From: Chloroflexota bacterium
GTDB taxonomy: Bacteria > Chloroflexota > Dehalococcoidia > JACQGW01
NCBI GenBank assembly: GCA_016199325.1
Contig: JACQGW010000194.1
Coordinates: 1-11,642 of the forward strand
DNA: 11,642 nucleotides
Direction of reading: 5' to 3'
Position numbers and translations under genes: made by a program. Below the pieces are notes generated by a model. It saw only the letters and a list, made by a program, of their open reading frames with translations, did not search any database and was not told the DNA's origin. This document shows, in pieces, positions 1 to 11,642 of this stretch. Position 1 is the first letter of the stretch; each line of letters begins with the position of its first letter.

Positions 1-674
1 ACCCAAAGCCGGTGTCCGTTGCCATCTCGTTGTCCGGTTCACCCCCACACGCGTGGGGACAACGTCCGGTACGGCAGATGTTTCCAAACGTGCGCCGGTT
101 CACCCCCACACGCGTGGGGACAACTACCCGGCTGTTGGTGTGCCTATCGGCTCCGACGGTTCACCCCCACACGCGTGGGGACAACCTGGTCGTCGTGGAC
201 GAGTTACCGCTCGACGCCGGTTCACCCCCACACGCGTGGGGACAACGAGCGTTATCTCGTTCCAGGTGAGGCCCGTCCCGGTTCACCCCCACACGCGTGG
301 GGACAACATGCACCCCTCCCACAACCGCAGAAGCCTTACCGGTTCACCCCCACACGCGTGGGGACAACGACGCCCGGTACGCCGCTACCGGGGCAGGGCG
401 CGGTTCACCCCCACACGCGTGGGGACAACGCGTCGACCGCCGCGTCGCCGCGGCGGTCGTGCGGTTCACCCCCACACGCGTGGGGACAACCAGCAGCGGC
501 CGACGGCCGAGACTGGCGGCGTCGGTTCACCCCCACACGCGTGGGGACAACTCCCGTAGCTCGGCCGGGCTGAACCGGATCAGCGGTTCACCCCCACACG
601 CGTGGGGACAACGAGCGCGCCGATCAAACTGTAGTGGAGCGCCGGCGGTTCACCCCCACACGCGTGGGGACAAC
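1..674 (-). CRISPR. Type I-E CRISPR array: 11 full repeats, 10 spacers, cut by the left edge
   Basis: Eleven 29-nt repeats start at 35, 96, 157, 218, 279, 340, 401, 462, 523, 584 and 646, and all are identical. On the minus strand the repeat begins GTTGTCCCCACGCGT and ends GTGAACCG, the usual I-E form: a CCCCAC/GTGGGG hairpin and an 8-nt crRNA 5' handle. Spacers are 32 nt, except the cas2-proximal one (613-645), which is 33 nt. Positions 1-2 (ac) fit the end of a further repeat and 3-34 a further 32-nt spacer, so the array continues to the left. The repeats sit directly downstream of cas2 and read in the same direction as the cas genes, so the leader end is on the right. No repeat is degenerate, so the array's trailer end lies outside the window. 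Confidence 0.99.
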
Positions 675-702
675 GCTGCGCTTTTCGGCGGTTTTACGCC
701 GA
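675..702 (-). promoter_or_regulatory. Very short leader and hairpin at the cas2-array junction
   Basis: Only 19 nt (675-693) separate the cas2 stop codon from the first repeat. On the minus strand a perfect 6-bp stem TCGGCG/CGCCGA (697-702 and 685-690) has the loop TAAAAC, which holds the cas2 TAA stop (694-696). An A-rich GAAAAGCGCAGC tract then abuts the repeat. No convincing promoter or AT-rich IHF-like segment is visible here. The array may therefore be transcribed by read-through of the cas operon, or from a promoter inside cas2, and the leader signals for spacer integration may extend into cas2. There is no U-tract, so this is not an obvious terminator. Confidence 0.45.
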
Positions 703-966
703 TCGGATGAGCGAAAGGCCGTCGAAGTCCGCGATGGCTCGGCTGGTAGTGCCCCAGGTGCGGATGGCGAACCCCTGCTCGGCGTCGCTGTTGTGGATCA
801 GGGTTGCCGCGCCTTCCCTGGCGCTCTTGCAGACCAGCTCCCAGAGCTTTTCCCGGACCAGCGCCGACACGGTGCCGACGAAGACGCCGGCCTGCGGCTC
901 CAGCAGCCACCGCGTCAGCTCGCCCCGCAGGCTGGGCGATACCCGCTCCACGATCAGGACCACCAT
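694..966 (-). CDS. cas2: CRISPR-associated endoribonuclease Cas2, type I-E (CT1978 family)
   Basis: This is the structural partner of Cas1 in the spacer-integration complex (Cas1 dimers bridged by a Cas2 dimer). The 90-aa product has the I-E Cas2 pattern: a beta strand VVLIVERV containing the conserved Glu of the I-E family, then LRGELTRWLLE, AGVFVG and ADFDGLSL near the C terminus. It reads colinearly with E. coli Cas2 as remembered. The ATG at 966 lies 7 nt after a GGAGG and 2 nt after the cas1 stop. A GTG at 972 overlapping the cas1 stop (GTGA) would add two residues but sits against the Shine-Dalgarno, so the ATG is preferred. It is the last gene of the operon, 19 nt from the array. The TAA stop lies in a small hairpin loop. 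Confidence 0.96.
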   Translation of the reverse strand: MVVLIVERVSPSLRGELTRWLLEPQAGVFVGTVSALVREKLWELVCKSAREGAATLIHNSDAEQGFAIRTWGTTSRAIADFDGLSLIRSA

Positions 967-968
967 CG

Positions 969-1919
969 TCACTCCTCCGGCTCAGGCACGTCGGCCTGGT
1001 TGATCCCGCCGGCCACCTCGCCGCTCTCCGGGTCCCACAGCCCGCCGGGCGCTGCGTCGTCCATGTCGAAGATCGCGTCCCCACCGGCCTCGCCCTCGTC
1101 TCCGATACCCAGCGCCCGGTCGACGTCCGGCACGATCCGCTGCAAGAGCCGCTCGCTCTTGAACCGGTCGCGGAGCGTCCGGCGGATTCGTCCTTCGAGG
1201 TCCTTCGTCCCCTCGACGACGGCGCGGAAGGCGACCGGTATGGTCACGTCCGCCTTGTACAGATCGGCGACGTCATAGACGAACGAGAGCATCTTGCCGG
1301 TGTGAATGAACCCCAGCGCCGGCGAGTACCCGACCGAGACAATGGCCGCGTGACACACCCCGTACAGGCAGGAGTTGGCGCACGACAGCGCCCGGTTTAT
1401 CGGATCGGCGCTCTGCCATTGGTCTCGCTTGTACGAGCGCCCCTCCCACTTCACGCCCGTCTCCCGGCTCGCCCGCGCATAGGATTCCCGCACTCTGATG
1501 CCCTCCTTGCCGCGCAGTTGCTGGAGGGTCAGCGAGGGGTCGAGCGGGCCGGGGAACCGCATCCGGTACATCCGCATCACCACCTCCAGGTGGAGCTTCG
1601 GGTCGGAGCACAGCCGCGCCTGATGGAGCAATCGAGCCGACGAGCGCGTTTCACCCATGCCGACGGCGTAGAACCGGACGGCCTCCTCACCCGTCCAGAA
1701 CACGAGACACCCGTTGTCGGCGAGCGCCCGAATGGCGGCGTGGGTGATGCTCGTGCCGGGCCCCAGCATCAGGACAGCCAGCGTCGAGCAGGGGACCGGG
1801 ATCTTGCCGCTCTTGTCATGGAGGGCGATCGCCTTGTCCTCCTGGTCGATCTTGCAGTGCTCGGCGTACAGGTAGCTCCAGCTATCTCGGATCTTCGGGA
1901 GCAGATGCAGGTCTTTCAC
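969..1919 (-). CDS. cas1: CRISPR-associated integrase Cas1, type I-E
   Basis: Cas1 is the integrase that inserts prespacers at the leader-proximal repeat together with Cas2. The 316-aa protein aligns along its length with E. coli Cas1 (about 305 aa). The metal ligands are present: Glu139 in LRGKEGIRVRESYA, His206 in GFIHTGK and Asp219 in FVYDVADLYK, with Asp216 also conserved. Their spacing matches E. coli E141/H208/D218/D221. Residues about 270-316 form an acidic, Gly/Asp/Glu-rich tail, longer than but similar in place to the disordered E. coli tail. The start is GTG: the next Met is at residue 51, inside the conserved N-terminal domain. The gene begins 3 nt after the cas6e stop, and its TGA nearly abuts the cas2 start, so translation is probably coupled. 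Confidence 0.98.
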   Translation of the reverse strand: MKDLHLLPKIRDSWSYLYAEHCKIDQEDKAIALHDKSGKIPVPCSTLAVLMLGPGTSITHAAIRALADNGCLVFWTGEEAVRFYAVGMGETRSSARLLHQARLCSDPKLHLEVVMRMYRMRFPGPLDPSLTLQQLRGKEGIRVRESYARASRETGVKWEGRSYKRDQWQSADPINRALSCANSCLYGVCHAAIVSVGYSPALGFIHTGKMLSFVYDVADLYKADVTIPVAFRAVVEGTKDLEGRIRRTLRDRFKSERLLQRIVPDVDRALGIGDEGEAGGDAIFDMDDAAPGGLWDPESGEVAGGINQADVPEPEE

Positions 1920-1922
1920 GGC

Positions 1923-2702
1923 TCACCCCGCTCCCTCACGGTCGCGGCTCGGGCCGGGGGCCGCTCCCTCGCGTACCGGCGCAATCGAGAGCAGGCCGAA
2001 ACCGTAGGCTTTGCCCGAGCCGATGCCCTCTTCCAGCGTCCGGCGAAGTCGGTCGGCGTCGACCACCTGGAGTCGCCCCTCGAACAGCACCGATCCAAAC
2101 GTGAGCTCATCCATCCCCTGCGCAACCCGGGTCGGCGCGCCGGACGGGCGCCGACCTTCGACCGCCGCGCCCGGCGTCGTTCGAACGTCGCTCACGTCGG
2201 GATGCCGGCGCACGGCGAGCACCCGGAAGCCGCCCTGTTCTCCCTTGCGGAGCAGCCATTGCACTTGGTCCGCTTCGTCGCGCAGATCGATCCGCCGTCC
2301 ATGCCATCGTTCGCCATCGCGCTCGTTGTGCTGGTCGATCCGCTTCGTCGGATTGGCGCGCAACCGAAACAGCAAGGTCATGTCGGCCACGATGCCGCCA
2401 TAGTGCTCGTCGATGCGCTTGCAGTCCCTGGGCCGGCCTCCATCCGAGTCGTCGCGCAGGTAACCCGGCGGCAGCCGGGACCAGTCCGGCTGCACGCGCG
2501 ATTGAACCAGCACCTGGATCCGCCCATCTCGGCCGACCTCCAGTCGGTGCAGGACGCCGTAATACGCGCGCGCGCCGGCTGTTCTCGCCGGCGCCGGCGG
2601 GAACGCCGCCATGATCGTCCGATGGAGCTGGTGGCAATCGGCCAGGTCCTTGCGGACCGTCTTGCTCTTCGGATTCAGGACGATGCGAGAAAGGTAAAGC
2701 AT
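1923..2702 (-). CDS. cas6e: Cas6e crRNA endoribonuclease (CasE/Cse3)
   Basis: Cas6e cleaves the pre-crRNA below the repeat hairpin, leaves the 8-nt GUGAACCG handle, and stays on the crRNA 3' stem as a Cascade subunit. The 259-aa protein starts MLYLSRIVLN, the family's first strand. It carries FRLRANPTKR (residues 112-121), VLFEGRLQVVD (205-215) and the C-terminal glycine-rich loop GIGSGKAYGFGLLSIAP (226-242). The helix DLADCHQLHRT places His27 at the catalytic histidine position; the Tyr three residues earlier in E. coli and Thermus enzymes is His24 here. The ATG at 2702 shares its A with the cas5e TGA (TGATG) and follows GAGGAGGT, so a nine-codon upstream extension is rejected. At 259 aa it is longer than E. 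coli CasE (199 aa), largely through an insertion around residues 81-105 and a short tail. Confidence 0.97.
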   Translation of the reverse strand: MLYLSRIVLNPKSKTVRKDLADCHQLHRTIMAAFPPAPARTAGARAYYGVLHRLEVGRDGRIQVLVQSRVQPDWSRLPPGYLRDDSDGGRPRDCKRIDEHYGGIVADMTLLFRLRANPTKRIDQHNERDGERWHGRRIDLRDEADQVQWLLRKGEQGGFRVLAVRRHPDVSDVRTTPGAAVEGRRPSGAPTRVAQGMDELTFGSVLFEGRLQVVDADRLRRTLEEGIGSGKAYGFGLLSIAPVREGAAPGPSRDREGAG

Positions 2703-3391
2703 CACACCTCCTCGGGGCGCGACCGCCACTCGGTCATCACGTACCGGGTCGCGAACCCGCGCTCGGCGAACGACACCGGCACATCGCGGCGCACGTCGCC
2801 GCCCCGTTCCCTATCGGCGTCAAACACGAAACGCAGGCGCTCGGCTGAGCTGTCCCCCCACGTCGGCCAGGGATATCGGGAGAGCTCGTCGAGCAAGGCC
2901 CCGTCCCGCAGCCCCGGTCCCAGCGGCGACTCGTCGGGCAACCGCACCGGCTCACCTGGGACGAATGCCTTGCGGCCCAGGAACAGCGGCCAGACCGGTT
3001 CGCGAAGCGCCCGGTCCAGGCGCTGGAGCAGGTCTCGATCTCCCTCGAACCCCACCAGGAAGTCGGCGCCGGCCAGGTAGTAGCGCCACGATTCGCTCGG
3101 ACGGGTATTCTTCCCGCCGACGATAGCCACGCCGTAGCTCTGGCCGACCCCGTGGGTGCCGCCTGCCGTGTGGTAGTCGACCGACAACACCCCCTCCCGG
3201 TCCACGCGCACGCCCATCCTGAGCGCGGCGAGATCGTCGACCGCCGCGTGGCGCGGCCGTCCGAGCGCGGCGCAGAGCAGCCCGATCACCCCACTCTTGG
3301 ACGGCTCCAGACCGGTATCCCGAACGCGGAAGCGGCTCTGGGTGCCCCAGGATTGGAGCGGCCCGGCCAGGCGCAGAAGCAGGGTGCTCAT
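2702..3391 (-). CDS. cas5e: Cascade subunit Cas5e (CasD)
   Basis: Cas5e binds the crRNA 5' handle and caps the foot of Cascade, next to Cse1. The 229-aa protein has the RAMP-fold N terminus MSTLLLRLAGPLQSWG and then PSKSGVIGLLCAALG (residues 30-44), the classical Cas5 signature of a QSWG followed by a KSxVxGLL helix. DYHTAGG (72-78) and WPLFLGRKAFVP (134-145) are also typical of Cas5e. The length is usual (E. coli CasD is 224 aa). The open frame extends 43 codons upstream, but that part lies inside cas7e and is unlike Cas5. The ATG at 3391 overlaps the cas7e TGA by 4 nt (ATGA) with GGAG 9 nt upstream. The stop overlaps the cas6e ATG by one base. No defects are seen. Confidence 0.97.
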   Translation of the reverse strand: MSTLLLRLAGPLQSWGTQSRFRVRDTGLEPSKSGVIGLLCAALGRPRHAAVDDLAALRMGVRVDREGVLSVDYHTAGGTHGVGQSYGVAIVGGKNTRPSESWRYYLAGADFLVGFEGDRDLLQRLDRALREPVWPLFLGRKAFVPGEPVRLPDESPLGPGLRDGALLDELSRYPWPTWGDSSAERLRFVFDADRERGGDVRRDVPVSFAERGFATRYVMTEWRSRPEEV

Positions 3392-4590
3392 GTCGAGCGG
3401 CTCCGCCCGTTGGGGGCAAAGGTCACGGCACGCACCGTCTCCGTCACGAGGTCTTCCAGCGTTCCTGTCCGAGAACCGGCCAGCGTCCCGAGTCCGTCGC
3501 CGTCCAGTGCAGCGATCCACTTGCCTGCGATCGTTGCCTCGCCGTACATCGTCGCGAGCTTGTTCCAGTGAGCGGCGAGCGCGCCGGCGGAGTTGCCGAC
3601 AAGGTCTCCATCCTGGGTTGGCCGGATCGGGTCGACGAAGGCGTTCGCGAGCGACCAGAGCCCCGCCCGGCGGACGACCGTGAAGATGAGCGAGGGTGGG
3701 TTCTGCGCGGCCATGCTGTTCTGCTTCCCGGTCGGGACCGCGCTTGCCGCCGCGCGGAGGAATGCCCGCAGCGCCTCGCGGGCCAACTGCTCACTGCCGT
3801 CTGCCTGGCCGCCAAGGTTCTTCTTCAGTTGTTCCATATCGACGTTCGCGTAGCGATAGAAGCAGGCGGAGTTGAACCCGACGGTCCCCATCATGTCGGC
3901 GCCCGCCGTGTCCTCCGGCTTCAGATCGTCGACGGCGGTGTAGAAGTCGAACTCCATGCTGACCCGGTTGGTCGAGATGGCATGCGCCACCTGGCAGGCC
4001 GCGTGGACGTTGCGCTCCGGCAGGTCGGCGATCATCCTCCCGAACAACGCCAGGTCGACTGCCTTACCGCCGTCCAGGAGCTGTTTGACCGCGCTGGCGA
4101 CGGCCGGGCTCGACTGCTCTCTGGCGGTCTTCTTCGCATCTCTGACGCCCCTCGCGCCGGTCCCGGCGGCTTGGTCGCCGGCCGGCTGGGTCAGCACGTC
4201 CCAGAAGTCGAGGCACACCCGGGTCAACGCGCGCAGCTCTTCCTCGGCCAGGAAGAGCAGGTACGCGGTCTTCCCGTCGTCCTTCGGTCCCAGTCCAACG
4301 CTCTTCAACGCCGCTTCGACGGCCCGCTTCGCCAGCTCTTCGTCGCCCTTTCCCGCTGCGACGATCCGCTTGGCGACGGCTTCCACGGCGCGCTTGGTCC
4401 GGGCGGCCATCTGCTCTTCAGTGAGATGCCCCTGCTCCTTGAAGGCGGCCCGGATCGCCCGCTTGAGACACTGGCTCGAGATGCGCGCGCGGCGATAGCC
4501 GCCGAACTCGCAATCCTTGGGCGCTCCCGTGTCGTCTCGGTTCAAGTTGGCCGGCGCGAAATTCTGCAGCATGTGTAGCTCGACGAACAT
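3388..4590 (-). CDS. cas7e: Cascade backbone subunit Cas7e (CasC/Cse4)
   Basis: Six copies of this protein normally form the Cascade backbone along the crRNA, and flip out every sixth spacer base. The 400-aa product has the Cas7e signatures LNRDDTGAPKDCEFGGYRRARISS near residues 16-39 (given only as landmark motifs LNRDD, FGGYRR and RISSQ), HAISTNRV, FYTAVDD, FYRYANVD, and PTGKQNSMAAQNPP. The last corresponds to PGAKQRTYAAFNP in E. coli. It is a little longer than E. coli CasC (363 aa), through a segment around residues 55-110. The ATG at 4590 is chosen over the adjacent GTG at 4593 because AAAGGAG (4597-4603) is 6 nt from the ATG but only 3 nt from the GTG. That ATG shares one base with the cse2 TGA. 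The cas5e start overlaps its stop. Confidence 0.97.
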   Translation of the reverse strand: MFVELHMLQNFAPANLNRDDTGAPKDCEFGGYRRARISSQCLKRAIRAAFKEQGHLTEEQMAARTKRAVEAVAKRIVAAGKGDEELAKRAVEAALKSVGLGPKDDGKTAYLLFLAEEELRALTRVCLDFWDVLTQPAGDQAAGTGARGVRDAKKTAREQSSPAVASAVKQLLDGGKAVDLALFGRMIADLPERNVHAACQVAHAISTNRVSMEFDFYTAVDDLKPEDTAGADMMGTVGFNSACFYRYANVDMEQLKKNLGGQADGSEQLAREALRAFLRAAASAVPTGKQNSMAAQNPPSLIFTVVRRAGLWSLANAFVDPIRPTQDGDLVGNSAGALAAHWNKLATMYGEATIAGKWIAALDGDGLGTLAGSRTGTLEDLVTETVRAVTFAPNGRSRST

Positions 4591-5258
4591 CACTCGCTCC
4601 TTTCTTCCTGCGCGGCATGCGTGCCGCTCGATTCCTGCTCCGTGCTCGGCGCCCCCTCACCACTCGCCTGGCGCGCCTCGCTCGTGCTCCGGACACTCCC
4701 CCAGAAGGCACGTGCCCAGCCACGCTGGACGGTGCGCCGTGGCCGGTCCCACTGCTGAATGTCGGCGAGCAACTGCGCCCAGTCGATCGGGACGTCCTTG
4801 GATTTGAGCAACCCGACGGCATGCCGGAGCTGTTCCGGCAGGTCGTCGCGATGGGAGCTGAGCAGCGCCGTAAAACGCCGCTCGATGCTCTCGCTCTCGA
4901 CGGCTTGCGCAAGCCTGGCGAACGATGCGCCCAGATTCGTCGGACGCCGCTCGCCGTCCGCTTTCGGCCATGGGCGCTGGTGCCAGGCGAAGAGCGCCGC
5001 GACGAGGTAGTACGGCTCTTCCTGCCACGGTTGCGCGTTGTCCGGCAGCCACGGCACGACGTACGGGTACATTTCGGCGGCCTGGCCGGGCGGCACGCCG
5101 AGTCCCCGCCGCAGCTCGGCGAGCGCCGCTCGCTTCCGCGCCGCGACGCCGGACCGCTCAGGGCCAGACGGGGCCATCCCATCCGTGCTGCGCTCGCCGG
5201 GCAGCAGACTCTCGAGGTAGCGGACGAACTTGGTGATGTGAGTGATTGGTGGACTCAT
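4590..5258 (-). CDS. cse2: Cascade small subunit Cse2 (CasB)
   Basis: Cse2 is the helical small subunit; it dimerises in the belly of Cascade and stabilises the displaced DNA strand. The 222-aa product carries the family's C-terminal half: ESIERRFTALLSS (residues 123-135), LPEQLRHAVGLLKSK (140-154), IDWAQLLADIQQWD (158-171) and VQRGWARAFWG (177-187). A low-complexity polar tail follows (about 190-222, rich in Ser, Glu and Gly), which accounts for much of the excess over E. coli CasB (160 aa). The ATG at 5258 is chosen because it overlaps the cse1 stop (ATGA), is preceded by GAGGAGGAG at 5 nt, and begins the recognisable MSPPITHITKFVRYL helix. The 84 upstream in-frame codons lie inside cse1 and look like noise. 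Confidence 0.95.
   Translation of the reverse strand: MSPPITHITKFVRYLESLLPGERSTDGMAPSGPERSGVAARKRAALAELRRGLGVPPGQAAEMYPYVVPWLPDNAQPWQEEPYYLVAALFAWHQRPWPKADGERRPTNLGASFARLAQAVESESIERRFTALLSSHRDDLPEQLRHAVGLLKSKDVPIDWAQLLADIQQWDRPRRTVQRGWARAFWGSVRSTSEARQASGEGAPSTEQESSGTHAAQEERSE
4597..4603 (-). promoter_or_regulatory. Ribosome binding site deciding the ATG start of cas7e
   Basis: AAAGGAG on the minus strand lies in the end of cse2. It is 6 nt from the ATG at 4590 and 3 nt from the neighbouring GTG at 4593. A strong independent site fits the need for many Cas7 copies per Cascade. Confidence 0.65.
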
Positions 5259-6985
5259 CCCTGCTCCTCCTCGACGTGGTTCGACGTTGCGGTGTCTCGG
5301 GCAGCCTCCTCGGCCACCTGCTGGGTGTCGGTCCCGTAGCCCTTCAGGACCGCGCCGAGCCGCATGGCAAGCTCGTGCTGGGCGCGGGCGACTGCCTTGA
5401 TAGTCCGTGGCGACTCGTCGAGACCCTGGACGATCGCCTCGAAGGCGTTCCAGGCTTCTCGCCGCAGCGTCTTCGCCCAGCGCGCCTTCGGCTCCGCCCC
5501 GAAGTTCCACACCCGGTCGTCGTCCACCGCCGGATCGCTCGCCATGTCGACCAGCAGTTGCTTGAACGGAACTTCGAGGCGGGGCCAGTAGTGCTGCCCG
5601 GGCGCGAGGTGTCTCACGATGGGGCGGAGATCATCCTTTCTGGGCTGTCGCTGCTCGGTCGGCGCCACCAGCAGCGCCGCGAGCACCTGCACGGGGCGCG
5701 GAATCACCAACGCCTTCCCCTCAGCAGGAATCGCGTCGAACCCGAGCTCGAAGAGGCTCCCGACCGCTTCGGCGAGGTGGATCAGGGCCGTGACGGTATC
5801 CAGGAGCCGCTCCGAACGCGCGCTCTCCTCGAGATACGCCAACGGCAGCGGCAGGCGCTCATGGCGCCAGAAGATCACGTTCGCTTGATTCTTTGGGTCA
5901 GTGGTGACGCCATACACGTCGAGCGGCAGGACCGCCGCGCGGGTCAAGATCCCATTCCTAACGAGCCGTGAGAGCCAGTCCAGGGTCCGCGGCCGCGCAT
6001 GTGCGCCTCCAGCCTGAAAGAGCGCCAGGCTATCCCGCCAGAGCGCCCGGTCTTCCCGCAAGCTCACGGGCGGCCACGGATCCTCGTTCGCTTTCGCCCC
6101 CGGCCGTGAATGAAAGGCCAGCATCGTTTCCAGCTCTTTCCGAACGGACGGATCGGGGAGCTGGTATCCCTTCATGATGACGGCGCGCCGAATCACGATC
6201 CGGCCATCCGGCCCCGGCTCGGGCAGCAGCCGAATGCGGCGGCTTTGCCAGGTCAGGAGGTCGACGCAGCCGGCCGGATAGCGGTCGATCGGTTCGGTCG
6301 GGCTCGGGCGCTCCCAGGCCGGCAAGTCCTCACCCTGCAGCGCGGCCGTATCCGGGCGGGGGAAGCCGTGCAGGTTCAGCATCAGCGTCTGAAAGAGATT
6401 CGGGCCCTTTACCAGTACCACGGCGGTCTTCGTCAGTGGCCCAGCGCGGGCGTACTTGTGTGCAATGGGCTCGGTCTTTCCCAGGGACTTGGTACCACTG
6501 ACATCGAACGAGTGAAAGGCGATGACGTAGCGAGCGGCCTGGGCCGGCGTCAGGACCGGATCTGTGGTATGGTCGAAGAGCAGGACCGCATTGGCCGAGG
6601 ACGCCAGCTCGTGCGTCAACTGGCTGATCGGCTTGCCGTACTCCTCCTCGAGCCCGGCCACCTGGTAGAACGGATGGCGCTCGTTGAAGAGGTCGAAACG
6701 GTCGCGCCACCGGTCGAAGTAGGTCTGGAGCCGGGCCTGGTCCCACCGCGCCGCTTCCCAGAGATCCGCCCAGGCGTCGACGCCTTCCGGCTCGAAGTTC
6801 CGCCGGATGATTGCCAGGAGCAAACGGTGCAGCGCGGCCGTGATGAGCGGCGACGCATCGACGATCTCGCGGACCTCCGGCGCTCGCACCAGCACCGCAC
6901 AGAGACTCAGATCGACCGGCTGCTGCCGGTCCACGAGCATACAGGGGATCCAGGGCTCGTCCAGGAGGTTGAAGTGTGGGCTCAA
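5255..6985 (-). CDS. cse1: Cascade large subunit Cse1 (CasA)
   Basis: Cse1 recognises the PAM, starts R-loop formation and recruits Cas3. The 576-aa protein begins MSPHFNLLDEPWIPC; FNLLDEPWIP is the hallmark CasA N terminus. It carries HPFYQ (residues 104-108), NAVLLFDH (132-139), a GPLTKTAVVLVKG strand, and an alpha-helical C-terminal half corresponding to the four-helix bundle. It is longer than E. coli CasA (502 aa) but normal for non-enteric I-E systems; the paired CxxC motif of the E. coli protein is not seen. The start is TTG (6985): it overlaps the cas3 stop as TTGA, has AAGGAG 7 nt upstream (6993-6998), and no upstream alternative fits the family start. The rare initiation codon may lower its translation relative to neighbours. 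Confidence 0.97.
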   Translation of the reverse strand: MSPHFNLLDEPWIPCMLVDRQQPVDLSLCAVLVRAPEVREIVDASPLITAALHRLLLAIIRRNFEPEGVDAWADLWEAARWDQARLQTYFDRWRDRFDLFNERHPFYQVAGLEEEYGKPISQLTHELASSANAVLLFDHTTDPVLTPAQAARYVIAFHSFDVSGTKSLGKTEPIAHKYARAGPLTKTAVVLVKGPNLFQTLMLNLHGFPRPDTAALQGEDLPAWERPSPTEPIDRYPAGCVDLLTWQSRRIRLLPEPGPDGRIVIRRAVIMKGYQLPDPSVRKELETMLAFHSRPGAKANEDPWPPVSLREDRALWRDSLALFQAGGAHARPRTLDWLSRLVRNGILTRAAVLPLDVYGVTTDPKNQANVIFWRHERLPLPLAYLEESARSERLLDTVTALIHLAEAVGSLFELGFDAIPAEGKALVIPRPVQVLAALLVAPTEQRQPRKDDLRPIVRHLAPGQHYWPRLEVPFKQLLVDMASDPAVDDDRVWNFGAEPKARWAKTLRREAWNAFEAIVQGLDESPRTIKAVARAQHELAMRLGAVLKGYGTDTQQVAEEAARDTATSNHVEEEQG

Positions 6986-9822
6986 GGGTTCGCTCCTTCC
7001 GGGCTCTCGACTACGAGCCCGACATTCTCGTCAAGGTGCAGCACGTGTCGTCCGACCGGCACCCGTCCGGTGTCGTCGAGGGTCAGCAGCCGCTCGTGGC
7101 GGAGCAGCGCCGAGCGCCGCCAGCCTGCCGGCGGCTCCATCCGCAGGAGGTCGAAGACGACCCGCTTGTCGGAGATGGTGAGGGAGCGCCGGAGGAGCTG
7201 CTCGGCCTGCCTGGCATCTGGCCTGGCCTTCAGTTCGACAGGCTCCCGGCCGCCGGCATCCAGCGACGGATGCTCGGGCGTTCCGTGCAGGAAGACGACG
7301 CTCACCGACGGCTCCGCCAGCCGCGTCAGCGCCTGGTGTTCGACGTGGAAGTCGGGCGCATCTTCGGCACGGGCGTCGGCGGTCAGGTCAGCCAGCTCAC
7401 CCCTGAACCAGGGAGGCTGCAACCACCGCTTGAGGGCTTCCCGTTTCTCACGCGTAGTGTCCTGGTCCAGCCACTGCCGGGTCTCCCTCCATCTCGCCTG
7501 GAGCGCCGGGCTGAGGTCAGCCGGGCAGCTTTGGGCATCGTCGTAGACAGCTTCGACGAGCGGCTCCACGTCCTTCGGAAGCTCGACGATCTGGCGCCCC
7601 TTCAGCACGAGCCACGAGCGGAGGAGGACGTGGGGATCGTACACCGCTTCCGAGCCGCGCCCGAAGCCAGGCACGTCGCCGTCCAGGGTCTCCGGGCGCA
7701 GGATCCAGAGCTGGGGCTCGGCAAGGCGCGCCGGCCGATGGCCGTGGGCGCGACGGTCATGGCGATGCAGCCGGCCGAGGCGTTGCAGCACCAGGTCGAC
7801 CGGGGCCAGATCGGTCACCATCAGGTCGAAATCGAGATCCAACGATTGCTCGACGATCTGCGTCGCCACGAGCACGGCGCGCCACGGCCGCCGAACCGTC
7901 GCCGTCTGACCCTCGGCCACCGTGACCGTCGCGTCGGGCTTGCCGAAGCGGAGGATGACGCGCTTCTCCCGGCGGTCGCGCTCCTCGAACAGGAACCGGG
8001 CGTGAAGGAGGTCGCACTCCGGCAACCCATCGTCGGCCACACCGCCGAAGAAGGGCTTCAGCGCGCGATAGACCTGCTGCGCACGGTGGACCGTGTTGCA
8101 GATGACTACGGCGCAGCCGCCGGCGGCGAGCGCGTGACTGAGCTCCTCGCCCAGCAGAAACCGCGCGCCCTCCTCCTCGGGCAGGGCGCCGTCCAGCCAC
8201 CGGACTGTGACGTTCTTGCTGCTTTGCCCGGACGCGACGACGTGGCGGGCGTCGAGCACCGAGCGCGTGACCCAGGTGATCCTGGGATAGCGCTCGGCGG
8301 GCATGGGGCCTGTTGGCGGCCGTCCCAGCCCGGCGGCGTACGCCTGAAGGAGGGACTGACGGCGGGCGCTGGGTAGCGTTGCCGAGAGGAGCACGACCGA
8401 TGTCCTGAGCGCGCCGAGCCAGTTCAACAACCGCTCCAGCAGGGTTGTCATGTACGTGTCATAGGCATGCACCTCGTCGACGATGACCGTCTTGGACCCG
8501 AGCCCGAACAATCGGACGAACACGTGGGGGGTCTTGAGCACGCCAAGAAGTGCCTGGTCCACCGTCCCAACGCCGAACGGCGCCAGCAGCCCGCGCTTCC
8601 GATAGGTGAACCATTCGCCTGCGACGATCCCAGCCAGGTCGGTGGGGACCCGGTGATCGGCGTAGACACCGTCGATCCGGTCCGACTGGAAGACCTGGTC
8701 GGCGCCCATCCGGAGCTCCTGGAATGCGGCAGAAAGGGCCGCGTGCCCGTGGATGAGCTGCAGGTTGACCAGATCGTGCGGGAATCGCTCGGCGAGGAAC
8801 GAGCGGACGCGGTCGAACATCTGGTTGCTCGTGGCCTGCGTTGGCAACGCGAAGTAGCAGCCGCGCTGGCCGAGCACGGCGTTCCAGCGGTCGGCCAGGT
8901 ACATGGCGGCCTCGGTCTTCCCTTCGCCCATCGGCGCCTCGACGATGCACAGGCTCGGCTCGGCGATCGATTCGGCCACCAGCGCAGCACCCACCTGGAG
9001 CGGCCTGGCTGCCTTGCCTGGAAAGAGCTCCTCGAAGGTGCGCGGAGAAATCGGCGGCATCCAGCCGGTCCAGCCCAGTCGTTCGAGCGCGGTGTATGCA
9101 CGGCCTCTCGCCGTCGTGGCGTAGGCGACGGCGTCGACGGCCGGCGTGGCTGCCAGGTCCGGCACCGCGTACGGGAAATACGCCTCATTGGAGGCGATCC
9201 AGTCGGCGACCGCGATGAGGCCGGCCAACATCATGGCCGTGGGCGTCTGGATCACCGTGGGCGGCGCATCGATGGGAAGGCGGAGGACGTCTGCCAGCTC
9301 CTTCGCCACCGCCGCGCGTGCCTCGTCCCACGCGCGCGTGCCGTAATCGGCGTCGATCAGTGCGTCCAGCTCGCGATCGCCGGCGAAGATGCCGTGGTGG
9401 CCGCCCGTGGCGACTGCGATGGAAGAGGCCACGCCACGCGGCATCTTGAACTGGTCCGTGAGAATGTGCGGGAGCTTCAGCGTGGTCACGGCACCGTGGG
9501 CGGCCCACCGCACGCCGGTCGGACAGGGCATGCCGGAGCGACGAATCCGCTCAGCCATCGCCGGTTCCTGGAGGGCAAAGCCCGGGCTGAGCTTGCCAAT
9601 GTCGTGGAGGCCCGCGACAAACACCACCCAACGCCCGGCCGCGGCTTCGTCCAGTCCGAGCCCCACACTGAAGCGCCGCCGGGCCGCGGGCGACAGCACC
9701 TCGCGCCACATCGCCTCCACCACAACCGCGACGTCGATCATGTGGCAGATCAGCGGGTGCCAGGCGCCGGTGCGACGGTGTGTCTTTGCCCAGAAGAGCC
9801 GGTACAGGTCATGTGCCATCAT
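6982..9822 (-). CDS. cas3: Cas3 HD nuclease-helicase, type I-E
   Basis: Cas3 is the single-strand nuclease and 3'-5' helicase recruited by target-bound Cascade. In the 946-aa product the HD domain spans roughly residues 15-230: WHPLICH, GLHDIGKLSPGFA (His73-Asp74), AAHGAVT, GGHHG (142-143) and AVADWIASN (Asp207). The superfamily 2 helicase follows: Walker A EAPMGEGKTE (Lys302), DEVH (449-452), SAT (480-482), TQIVEQSLDLDFD, and motif VI QRLGRLHR (680-687). A C-terminal domain completes it. All expected catalytic motifs are intact. The ATG at 9822 lies 6 nt after GGAGG, with a second ATG immediately after it; a GTG 20 codons upstream would include the Shine-Dalgarno and the presumed transcript leader and is rejected. 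It is the first gene of the eight-gene operon, downstream of two candidate promoters. Confidence 0.97.
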   Translation of the reverse strand: MMAHDLYRLFWAKTHRRTGAWHPLICHMIDVAVVVEAMWREVLSPAARRRFSVGLGLDEAAAGRWVVFVAGLHDIGKLSPGFALQEPAMAERIRRSGMPCPTGVRWAAHGAVTTLKLPHILTDQFKMPRGVASSIAVATGGHHGIFAGDRELDALIDADYGTRAWDEARAAVAKELADVLRLPIDAPPTVIQTPTAMMLAGLIAVADWIASNEAYFPYAVPDLAATPAVDAVAYATTARGRAYTALERLGWTGWMPPISPRTFEELFPGKAARPLQVGAALVAESIAEPSLCIVEAPMGEGKTEAAMYLADRWNAVLGQRGCYFALPTQATSNQMFDRVRSFLAERFPHDLVNLQLIHGHAALSAAFQELRMGADQVFQSDRIDGVYADHRVPTDLAGIVAGEWFTYRKRGLLAPFGVGTVDQALLGVLKTPHVFVRLFGLGSKTVIVDEVHAYDTYMTTLLERLLNWLGALRTSVVLLSATLPSARRQSLLQAYAAGLGRPPTGPMPAERYPRITWVTRSVLDARHVVASGQSSKNVTVRWLDGALPEEEGARFLLGEELSHALAAGGCAVVICNTVHRAQQVYRALKPFFGGVADDGLPECDLLHARFLFEERDRREKRVILRFGKPDATVTVAEGQTATVRRPWRAVLVATQIVEQSLDLDFDLMVTDLAPVDLVLQRLGRLHRHDRRAHGHRPARLAEPQLWILRPETLDGDVPGFGRGSEAVYDPHVLLRSWLVLKGRQIVELPKDVEPLVEAVYDDAQSCPADLSPALQARWRETRQWLDQDTTREKREALKRWLQPPWFRGELADLTADARAEDAPDFHVEHQALTRLAEPSVSVVFLHGTPEHPSLDAGGREPVELKARPDARQAEQLLRRSLTISDKRVVFDLLRMEPPAGWRRSALLRHERLLTLDDTGRVPVGRHVLHLDENVGLVVESPEGANP
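6993..6998 (-). promoter_or_regulatory. Ribosome binding site deciding the TTG start of cse1
   Basis: AAGGAG on the minus strand, inside the end of cas3, is followed by 7 nt and the TTG. The spacing is optimal and supports this rare start codon. Confidence 0.7.
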
Positions 9823-9863
9823 TCGGCACCTCCCTCCTGCTCGTGGACCGGCCGGAACAAGAA

Positions 9864-9873
9864 CGAACGTTCG
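9864..9873. promoter_or_regulatory. Perfect 10-bp palindrome in the cas3 leader, possible operator
   Basis: CGAACGTTCG is a perfect palindrome. It lies about 5-14 nt downstream of the start point predicted for the cas3-proximal promoter (9885-9913) and about 42 nt before the cas3 ATG. The position suits a repressor site. No regulator gene is in the window. It lacks the 4-nt centre of a Gram-positive-type LexA box, so LexA is not proposed. Confidence 0.3.
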
Positions 9874-9884
9874 CTCTGCCACAC

Positions 9885-9913
9885 AGTATCTTACCTCCCG
9901 GGTCGTCTGTCAA
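9885..9913 (-). promoter_or_regulatory. Sigma-70-type promoter proximal to cas3 (P1)
   Basis: On the minus strand a perfect -35 TTGACA (9908-9913) is followed by exactly 17 nt and a -10 GATACT (9885-9890; four of six consensus bases). Transcription would start near 9878 and give a leader of about 56 nt before the cas3 ATG. This is the closest promoter candidate to the cas operon. The -35 is ideal and the spacing optimal. It is predicted from sequence only. Confidence 0.6.
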
Positions 9914-10046
9914 CCGCCGGGCAGTCCAATTGTTCGGCCTACCTCCAACCGTGCCAGCCCTGAACGGAGTGAGTGTTACGATATTCCTGGCTCACGATGT
10001 CGCCATGCGCGGGGTATCAGGTGACGCTCGATCGGGTGGCCTCGCC

Positions 10047-10081
10047 ATGTCGCCGGGCTTTCTTACGACACTACTCCCCTT
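10047..10081 (-). promoter_or_regulatory. Predicted Cascade target site for the mini-CRISPR pseudo-spacer
   Basis: On the minus strand AAG (10079-10081, the classical I-E PAM) is followed by GGGAGTAGTGTCGTAAG (10062-10078). The pseudo-spacer at 10252-10283 begins GGGAGCAGCGTAGTAAG: 14 of 17 positions agree, and the mismatches are at 6, 9 and 12. The rest of the 32-nt protospacer (10047-10061) does not match. The PAM falls at about +4 to +6 of the promoter at 10091-10119, so bound Cascade would block that promoter. Seed-limited pairing is known from CreR and CreA guides to allow repression without Cas3 degradation. Confidence 0.8.
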
Positions 10082-10090
10082 CAGTTTCAC

Positions 10091-10119
10091 ACTATACTCT
10101 ACAAACCGCCTTGTGTCAA
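10091..10119 (-). promoter_or_regulatory. Near-consensus sigma-70 promoter upstream of cas3 (P2), predicted Cascade-repressed
   Basis: On the minus strand TTGACA (10114-10119), a 17-nt spacer and TATAGT (10091-10096) match the consensus at 11 of 12 positions, making this the strongest promoter in the window. The start point should be near 10084. It reads toward cas3, about 260 nt before its ATG, through a stretch with no convincing gene. It could be a distal cas promoter with a long leader, or drive a small RNA or toxin of its own. The PAM and seed of the pseudo-spacer target sit immediately downstream of the start point. Confidence 0.7.
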
Positions 10120-10206
10120 GCCCCCGCTTGCTGAATGATTGGGCAATCTGGATCTTGCACCAGCCCTATCGCGGCGCGGGATGGCCGGAGGACAACTGGA
10201 GGGTTT

Positions 10207-10328
10207 TGCAGGCTTGTCCAGTCTCTTCACCGACGCGCGCGTGGGGACAAGGCTCGTGTGCCTGCACTTACTACGCTGCTCCCAGGGTCACCCCCACAGC
10301 GTGGGAACGGAGCTGAGACAAGCCTGCA
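10207..10328. repeat. 12-bp perfect inverted repeat bracketing the degenerate mini-CRISPR
   Basis: TGCAGGCTTGTC at 10207-10218 is the exact reverse complement of 10317-10328. With one bulged base the pairing continues three more bases inward. The arms lie 4 nt outside one degenerate repeat and 5 nt outside the other. In a minus-strand transcript they would close a stem around the whole mini-array. No target-site duplication is seen at the outer ends, so a mobile-element origin is only one possibility. Confidence 0.6.
10223..10311 (-). CRISPR. Degenerate mini-CRISPR (two pseudo-repeats, one 32-nt pseudo-spacer), candidate creR/creA guide RNA
   Basis: Two repeat relics occur at 10223-10251 and 10284-10311. 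Each matches the array repeat at 22 of 29 positions; the second lacks one loop base. Their starts are 61 nt apart and the interval 10252-10283 is 32 nt, both identical to the main array. Both keep hairpin potential: CCCAC-GCT-GTGGG in the first-transcribed relic, and CCCCACGCG pairing with one mismatch in the second. The handle preceding the pseudo-spacer is GTGACCCT instead of GTGAACCG. Orientation equals that of the main array. Cas6e could therefore still process it into a Cascade-loaded RNA. Its pseudo-spacer matches a PAM-flanked site at the promoter facing cas3, which argues for a regulatory guide rather than a decayed immune array. Confidence 0.85.
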
Positions 10329-10334
10329 CCTGTA

Positions 10335-10364
10335 ACCATAGCATGGTCACGATCGCTCTCGCAA
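10335..10364 (-). promoter_or_regulatory. Weak candidate promoter for the mini-CRISPR RNA
   Basis: On the minus strand TTGCGA (10359-10364), an 18-nt spacer and TATGGT (10335-10340) match the consensus at four of six positions each. The start point would be near 10328, the outer end of the inverted repeat that brackets the mini-array, and 17 nt before the first degenerate repeat. The coincidence of positions is suggestive but the boxes are weak. Confidence 0.3.
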
Positions 10365-10382
10365 TAGGCCGGCGGTGACCAT
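10343..10382. repeat. 8-bp inverted repeat over the candidate mini-CRISPR promoter
   Basis: ATGGTCAC (10343-10350) and GTGACCAT (10375-10382) are exact reverse complements 24 nt apart. They flank the candidate -35 box (10359-10364), with a further ACCAT half-site at 10335-10339. This may be an operator for a dimeric regulator, or an RNA stem at the 3' end of the upstream dehydrogenase transcript. No T-tract follows, so it is not a clear terminator. Confidence 0.3.
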
Positions 10383-10569
10383 CTGGCGGCTGGCCCAGCG
10401 GCCGGCTTCGACTGTGGTGGAGCGGATTTCCAGGCCCGCTGTTCACCGCGGCAACGGGCACCCTGTACCAGCCATAGAGCGGCGAGCAGGAACATTGAAC
10501 CGGGGAAGAGCACAAGAGACGTGACCTGGCTTGGCCTCCGGTTCCGGCCCCTGGCCCCTGACCCCCGCC
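10383..10569. other. Intergenic DNA without a recognised feature
   Basis: This is the remainder of the gap between the dehydrogenase stop codon and the mini-CRISPR promoter region. It is GC-rich, with short G/C-rich tandem motifs next to the stop (CAGGGGC-like units around 10545-10568). No convincing gene, terminator hairpin with a T-tract, or RNA gene was found. Confidence 0.5.

Positions 10570-11642
<1,073 letters not shown>

Follow-up and report, generated by a model that had tools for sequence, protein, structure and literature searches.

According to reviews that summarize the work of Liu et al. (2023, Cell Host Microbe), cas-regulating RNAs (CreR) occur in CRISPR-Cas types I-B, I-E and V-A, and the original prediction for the locus studied here had likewise treated such RNAs as already published. 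The toxin-antitoxin arrangement CreTA is documented, in the literature passages drawn on here, for Haloarcula hispanica and H. hubeiense and, within type I-E, for Citrobacter rodentium. In the type I-B system of H. hubeiense each of ten seed positions (guide nucleotides 1-5 and 7-11) is reported to be needed, and the cited section on creA genes describes a first pseudo-repeat (psiR1) that is the further diverged but keeps its handle, together with a second one (psiR2) that largely lacks the 8-nt handle (PMC9458426, section 13). In CrePA, as summarized in the passages cited, a KilA-N protein toxin is repressed by a CreA guide.

The locus compared here with these systems lies in an 11,642-nucleotide stretch of Chloroflexota DNA, which we call the window. 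Its minus strand carries an intact type I-E operon: a CRISPR array of 11 identical 29-nt repeats (35..674), the genes cse1/casA, cse2/casB, cas7, cas5, cas6e, cas1 and cas2 (694..6985), all recognised as type I-E, and cas3 (6982..9822), whose ATG at 9822 follows GGAGGGAGG and for which an in-frame GTG at 9882 is an alternative start that would add 20 residues to Cas3. Every gene scores above the threshold of an NCBIfam model; in the case of cas3 these are the models of the helicase and HD domains, and the full-length model PRK09694 falls short of its threshold. The closest Cse1 proteins among the best 120 listed are 50-51% identical, and the best full-length Cas3 match, from a Chloroflexi bacterium, reaches about 55-57% identity, no full-length relative above 57% having been found. 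Beyond the intergenic region upstream of cas3, a minus-strand gene at 10570-11637 has a sub-threshold resemblance to the family of PQQ-dependent glucose/sorbosone dehydrogenases.

Outside the array, upstream of cas3, two relatives of the array repeat enclose a 32-nt pseudo-spacer on the minus strand. psiR1 (10284..10312) agrees with the array repeat at 16/29 positions and ends in the 8-nt 5' handle GTGACCCT (6/8), the pseudo-spacer or guide (10252..10283) begins GGGAGCAGCGTAGTAAG, and psiR2 (10223..10251) agrees at 22/29 positions, with 16/21 over its first 21 nt and 6/8 over its last 8. psiR1 is accordingly the further diverged of the two, which are identical to each other at 11/29 positions and are spaced with a period of 61 nt, the same as in the CRISPR array. 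Neither a 22/29 repeat match nor such a 61-nt pair arose in 5,000 dinucleotide shuffles of 9823-10569, which confirms the proposed mini-CRISPR as a real mini-array, with repeat relatives at the cas locus as expected of a CreR gene. Its degenerate repeats contrast with the 11 identical repeats of the array and depart from the near-identical repeats expected of an immune mini-array. A candidate promoter for the guide RNA, weak and based on consensus match only, lies at 10335..10364 on the minus strand (TTGCGA-18-TATGGT with an extended -10 TGC; 8/12). In terms of predicted folding, psiR1 forms a 9-bp hairpin of -9.1 kcal/mol and psiR2 reaches -5.6 kcal/mol, compared with -12.9 kcal/mol for the array repeat; since psiR2 folds weakly and neither pseudo-repeat is clearly better than its own shuffles (z 0.36 and -0.08), cutting by Cas6e is doubtful.

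The whole psiR-psiS-psiR unit is bracketed by a perfect 12-bp inverted repeat, TGCAGGCTTGTC, whose arms (10317..10328 outside psiR1 and 10207..10218 outside psiR2) stand exactly 4 nt from the unit on either side. Similarly spaced arms of 11 bp or more occurred in 65 of 5,000 shuffles, and none longer than 8 bp was found around the best two-repeat unit in the other 35 loci that carry one (see below). The inverted repeat could act as an RNA clamp or could mark the ends of a small mobile cassette. An Rfam scan of 9800-10600 gave no match.

The guide matches a site within its own locus. The target of guide nucleotides 1-17, GGGAGTAGTGTCGTAAG, lies on the minus strand at 10062..10078 and adjoins the PAM AAG (10079..10081), which begins 9 nt past the -10 hexamer of a predicted promoter, P1. 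The match covers 14/17 positions, with mismatches at nucleotides 6, 9 and 12. These features were correctly described in the original prediction, down to the letters and coordinates of pseudo-spacer and target (10283-10252 and 10078-10062, minus strand), and its remark that no match extends beyond nucleotide 17 is essentially right, given that just 1/15 of the further positions (C24) is identical. Cascade is reported to leave every sixth guide base unpaired (PMC13122317); when these bases are dropped, 14/15 paired positions match. Nucleotides 6 and 12 fall on such unpaired bases, as the original prediction stated, and position 9 is a true C-A mismatch within the seed (nucleotides 1-5 and 7-11), which pairs at 9/10.

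As regards chance, none of 20,000 dinucleotide shuffles of both mini-array flanks (9823-10217 and 10313-10569) reached at least 14/15 paired positions, with or without a PAM. At least 13/15 beside one of four PAMs was reached in 2/20,000, and at least 14/17 in 35/20,000 without a PAM and in none with AAG. When the 21,596 other 32-mers of the window served as control guides, 8 matched the same gap at 14/15 or better, 1 of them beside one of the four PAMs, and the 11 true array spacers attained at best 10/15 beside a PAM. These results confirm that PAM-adjacent pairing of the seed to a near-consensus promoter is far beyond chance, as had been claimed, and that the guide has the kind of complementarity expected of a CreR. 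A search for a second target on the downstream promoter P2 and on the guide's own promoter found none.

The region 9800-10580 contains two sigma-70-like sites (0.1 expected), each of them on the minus strand. P1 (10091..10119; TTGACA-17-TATAGT), the promoter named in the original prediction, scores 11/12 and lies about 260 bases 5' of cas3 and 206 bp upstream of P2 (9885..9913; TTGACA-17-GATACT; 10/12). The latter, which did not appear in the original prediction, carries no target and sits between the target and cas3, 63-91 nt before the gene. Of 48 Chloroflexota-derived regions offering 300 nt or more of upstream DNA, 4, the window among them, place a site scoring 10/12 or better in the 300 nt before cas3 (0.48 expected), and the window alone has two. 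Our scan found no minus-strand terminator between P1 and cas3, including the stretch between P1 and P2.

The interval between both promoters (9914..10085, minus strand) would form the leader of a P1-cas3 mRNA or, hypothetically, a short creT. It holds a 2-codon ORF (GTG 10071, with AAGG 6 nt before) as well as 18-codon ORFs (ATG 10048 and GTG 9995) and smaller ones without a good Shine-Dalgarno sequence; the longest closed ORF, of 32 codons, starts before the predicted P1 start point. A 12-codon TTG ORF on the same strand (9929-9891), with AGGT at 11 nt, overlaps P2 and ends in AGA-CGA-CCC-GGG-AGG; the cas genes seldom use AGA, CGA and AGG (3.6, 10.0 and 5.2 per 1,000), and the ORF is probably due to chance. 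Next to cas3, a 21-codon ORF (9819..9884, minus strand) starts at GTG 9884 behind GGAGGT (9898-9893) and stops at a TGA (9821-9819) that overlaps the cas3 ATG. Transcription from P2 is expected to start near 9878, downstream of both GTG 9884 and GTG 9882, so that only the P1 mRNA would carry the two. Because the GGAGGT-led ORF lies upstream of this start and ends over the cas3 ATG, the P1 mRNA could couple cas3 translation to it; the same ORF could alternatively encode a toxin peptide and thus be a creT candidate.

In order to see how far this design recurs, we examined 130 type I-E loci; after removal of 6 duplicates and of 11 loci in which the N-terminus was missing or the upstream DNA too short, the cas3-upstream set comprised 113 relatives and the window (114 regions). 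By blastn, the window region gave two matches among the 113 relatives, at E about 1. A lone two-repeat unit is present in 36/114 regions (window included), and 8/114 combine it with one of four PAMs and at least 9/10 matches at guide nucleotides 1-5 and 7-11 (the window, L005, L007, L023, L087, L093, L099 and L116), where shuffles lead to an expectation of 0.71; in the other 28/36 a qualifying target is absent at the thresholds used. Even though four PAMs were allowed, AAG is used in 7/8 qualifying loci, and in all 7 that are left once L007 is discounted. L007 was set aside, as its guide and target are both part of a series of TGGGTTTGATCGGCCGG copies, and a looser one-repeat screen was not counted, several of its matches being array repeats that match themselves (L038, L040, L050 and L092 lie outside the eight). 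In the six clean relatives nucleotide 6 is mismatched in five and nucleotide 12 in three, which provides no independent evidence since the screen ignores those positions. L116 shares the position-9 mismatch of the window.

The promoter context of the targets is mixed. The target of L087, a locus from a Chloroflexota genome, lies 7 nt after TTGACA-17-TAGATT, which is the sole site scoring 10/12 or better in the 300 nt before cas3, and this predicted layout has the geometry of a CreR; the corresponding distances are 9 nt in the window and 12 nt in L099 (TTGACA-17-TATCAT). Only two of the six clean relatives, L087 and L099, place the target just downstream of a predicted promoter: in L005 it lies just upstream of one, in L116 further upstream, and L023 and L093 have no predicted promoter beside the target.

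Small ORFs precede cas3 in L099 (81 codons, at -301), L116 (72 codons, at -199) and L005 (54 codons, at -254, all relative to cas3). That of L116 overlaps the aligned cas3 start, and the product of that of L005 begins with a hydrophobic stretch. None of the three was assigned to a family in Pfam, and they are possibly small genes under CreA control in type I-E loci. Additionally, the target region of L116 (about -460 to -405 relative to cas3) is an inverted repeat in which the guide matches both strands, at 13/15 beside AAG on one and as a nearly perfect copy beside TAG on the other, and by its sequence it resembles a Cascade operator with two-fold symmetry.

A further comparison is offered by 31 cas3-upstream regions of Bifidobacterium, one of which (L156) is a truncated copy of L139. 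The loose screen returned candidates in 7/31 regions (1.15 expected), with none at the thresholds used in 24/31; when AAG and a repeat match of at least 18/29 are required, 4/31 are observed against 0.0 expected. In these four, L131, L132, L133 and L139, the repeats match at 18-21/29, the PAM is AAG and the target lies 73-144 nt ahead of the aligned start of cas3, whereas L138, L149 and L158 were rejected for weak repeats (14-15/29) and lack of AAG. The target of L133 (the same locus as L040) overlaps the -10 of TTGACT-18-AATAAT, and that of L131 (L038) follows a TTGACA whose -10 fails to qualify. Guide nucleotide 6, which the screen ignores, is mismatched in all four. Their guides pair with their own targets at 10, 10, 9 and 9 of 10 positions, respectively, and with the targets of the other three at only 4-7 of 10, bearing in mind that the four were chosen for own-target fit. 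The call of the original prediction for covariation of guide and target in related loci is answered in part by this joint change between species in four loci, within Bifidobacterium and for the kind of system. Taken together, these loci suggest a recurrent type I-E design in which guide and promoter change together.

We consider the guide to be very probably a CreA/CreR-type RNA. The reading that we favour, with moderate confidence, is CreR: guide-led Cascade would repress P1 and so lower transcription that probably runs into cas3 and the cas operon. The two-repeat unit (10312-10223) would make a crRNA-like RNA, from which Cas6e would cut out a 61-nt species (about 10291-10231, inside the wider range proposed originally). 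Cascade from the operon itself would then load this RNA, bind near +5 of P1, thereby blocking it, presumably without cleavage by Cas3, since pairing stops at nucleotide 17, as judged from the CreTA and CreR passages cited. We expect P1 to act as the strong cas promoter that the guide holds down, with P2 providing a basal level free of repression; plentiful array crRNAs, or an anti-CRISPR tying up Cascade, would open P1.

In favour of CreR, psiR1 is further diverged than psiR2, as in creA, the I-E gene set is intact, and the design recurs. That P1 feeds cas3 is probable given the common strand, the lack of a terminator in our scan, the coupled ORF and the geometry of L087. Against CreR stand the lack of a target on P2 and the 206-bp promoter spacing, superfluous for a simple CreR, together with the seed mismatch at position 9, the weak psiR2 fold and the 8/12 guide promoter. 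The two 8-nt handles, both 6/8, are likewise unlike creA, and the 28/36 lone-unit loci and 24/31 Bifidobacterium regions without a target, as well as the fact that only 2/6 clean relatives have one just after a predicted promoter, also count against it. The autorepression of the original prediction stands as far as the crRNA-like guide, the intact I-E operon and the PAM-adjacent promoter match are concerned, and P1 is a candidate for the cas promoter, with P2 nearer to cas3.

The output is the least certain step, for P1 may feed the cas operon, as CreR implies and as we prefer, or a separate short RNA. In this regard, the untargeted P2 lies nearer to cas3, and P1 could instead drive a CreT-like RNA, with the guide acting as a CreA antitoxin and cas3 being run from P2. 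We regard it as unlikely that P1 is the promoter of an unrecognised short toxic RNA or peptide (perhaps the 21-codon ORF) and the locus a type I-E addiction module akin to CreTA, in which a palindrome would bracket the antitoxin cassette and the cas promoter would be a different, untargeted one. P2 would indeed give the cas operon a promoter of its own, a type I-E CreTA toxin is reported from C. rodentium, and L099 has its 81-codon ORF between targeted promoter and cas3. Small ORFs occupy this place in L005 and L116 as well, but the targets of these two loci lie upstream of a promoter. Candidates in the window are the ORFs at 9884 (GGAGGT), 10071 (AAGG) and 9929 (TTG). However, no ORF in 10085-9914 has a full Shine-Dalgarno sequence at good spacing, the 9929 ORF has its AGGT at 11 nt and runs into P2, the 9884 ORF extends over the start of cas3 in the manner of a leader, and no terminator found in the scan closes the P1 transcript. 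Moreover, the seed pairs at 9/10, compared with the full pairing at nucleotides 1-5 and 7-11 described for two haloarchaeal modules. If CreTA were true, loss of Cascade would free the toxin and the CRISPR system would be addictive.

It is improbable that the locus is a relic, that is, a once functional guide-promoter pair that has decayed and has no present effect. The 16/29 match of psiR1, the weak fold of psiR2, the position-9 mismatch and the weak guide promoter would fit decay, yet 14/15 paired positions and the PAM are intact beside a near-consensus promoter, and degenerate repeats are normal, and processed, in the creA genes described in the passages cited. Less probable still is an ordinary orphan mini-array with a phage-derived spacer and a coincidental promoter match, which the repeat-spacer-repeat layout and 32-nt spacer would suit but which is contradicted by the absence of such a match from all shuffles, by the degenerate repeats, by the lack of any match in viral contigs to guide nucleotides 1-23 when each sixth base was left free, and by the lack of phage records similar to 9823-10569. 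CrePA was discarded, the stretch from P1 to cas3 containing no protein-length gene.

Compared with the known systems as they are portrayed in the reviews and passages cited, the window shares three traits with CreR, namely a mini-array of crRNA-like design next to the operon, a limited match, adjoining a PAM, to one of the promoters at the locus, and a type I-E effector; unlike CreR as reviewed, it has an untargeted promoter between target and cas3 and a 12-bp inverted repeat bracketing the unit. With CreTA it shares two degenerate repeats, of which psiR1 is the further diverged, and a partial seed match, the Cascade-guided repression being described there and read from sequence here; its position just upstream of cas recalls the H. 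hubeiense module in particular. It differs from CreTA in having no recognisable toxin, in a 9/10 seed with pairing that extends to nucleotide 17, and in handles that are both 6/8. As in CrePA, a guide is matched to a promoter within the locus, repression by the guide being reported for CrePA and predicted here.

Since CreR and CreTA of type I-E are both in print, the window represents a further case of a known kind of system, and adds a likely RNA-guided self-repression circuit in a Chloroflexota lineage, with guide, PAM and target spelled out well enough for reporter testing. Its oddities with respect to that kind are the tandem promoters and the bracketing 12-bp inverted repeat, neither of which appears in the CreR and CreTA passages drawn on here. 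The tandem promoters sharpen the question of whether a CreA/CreR-type guide controls cas dosage or a hidden toxin.
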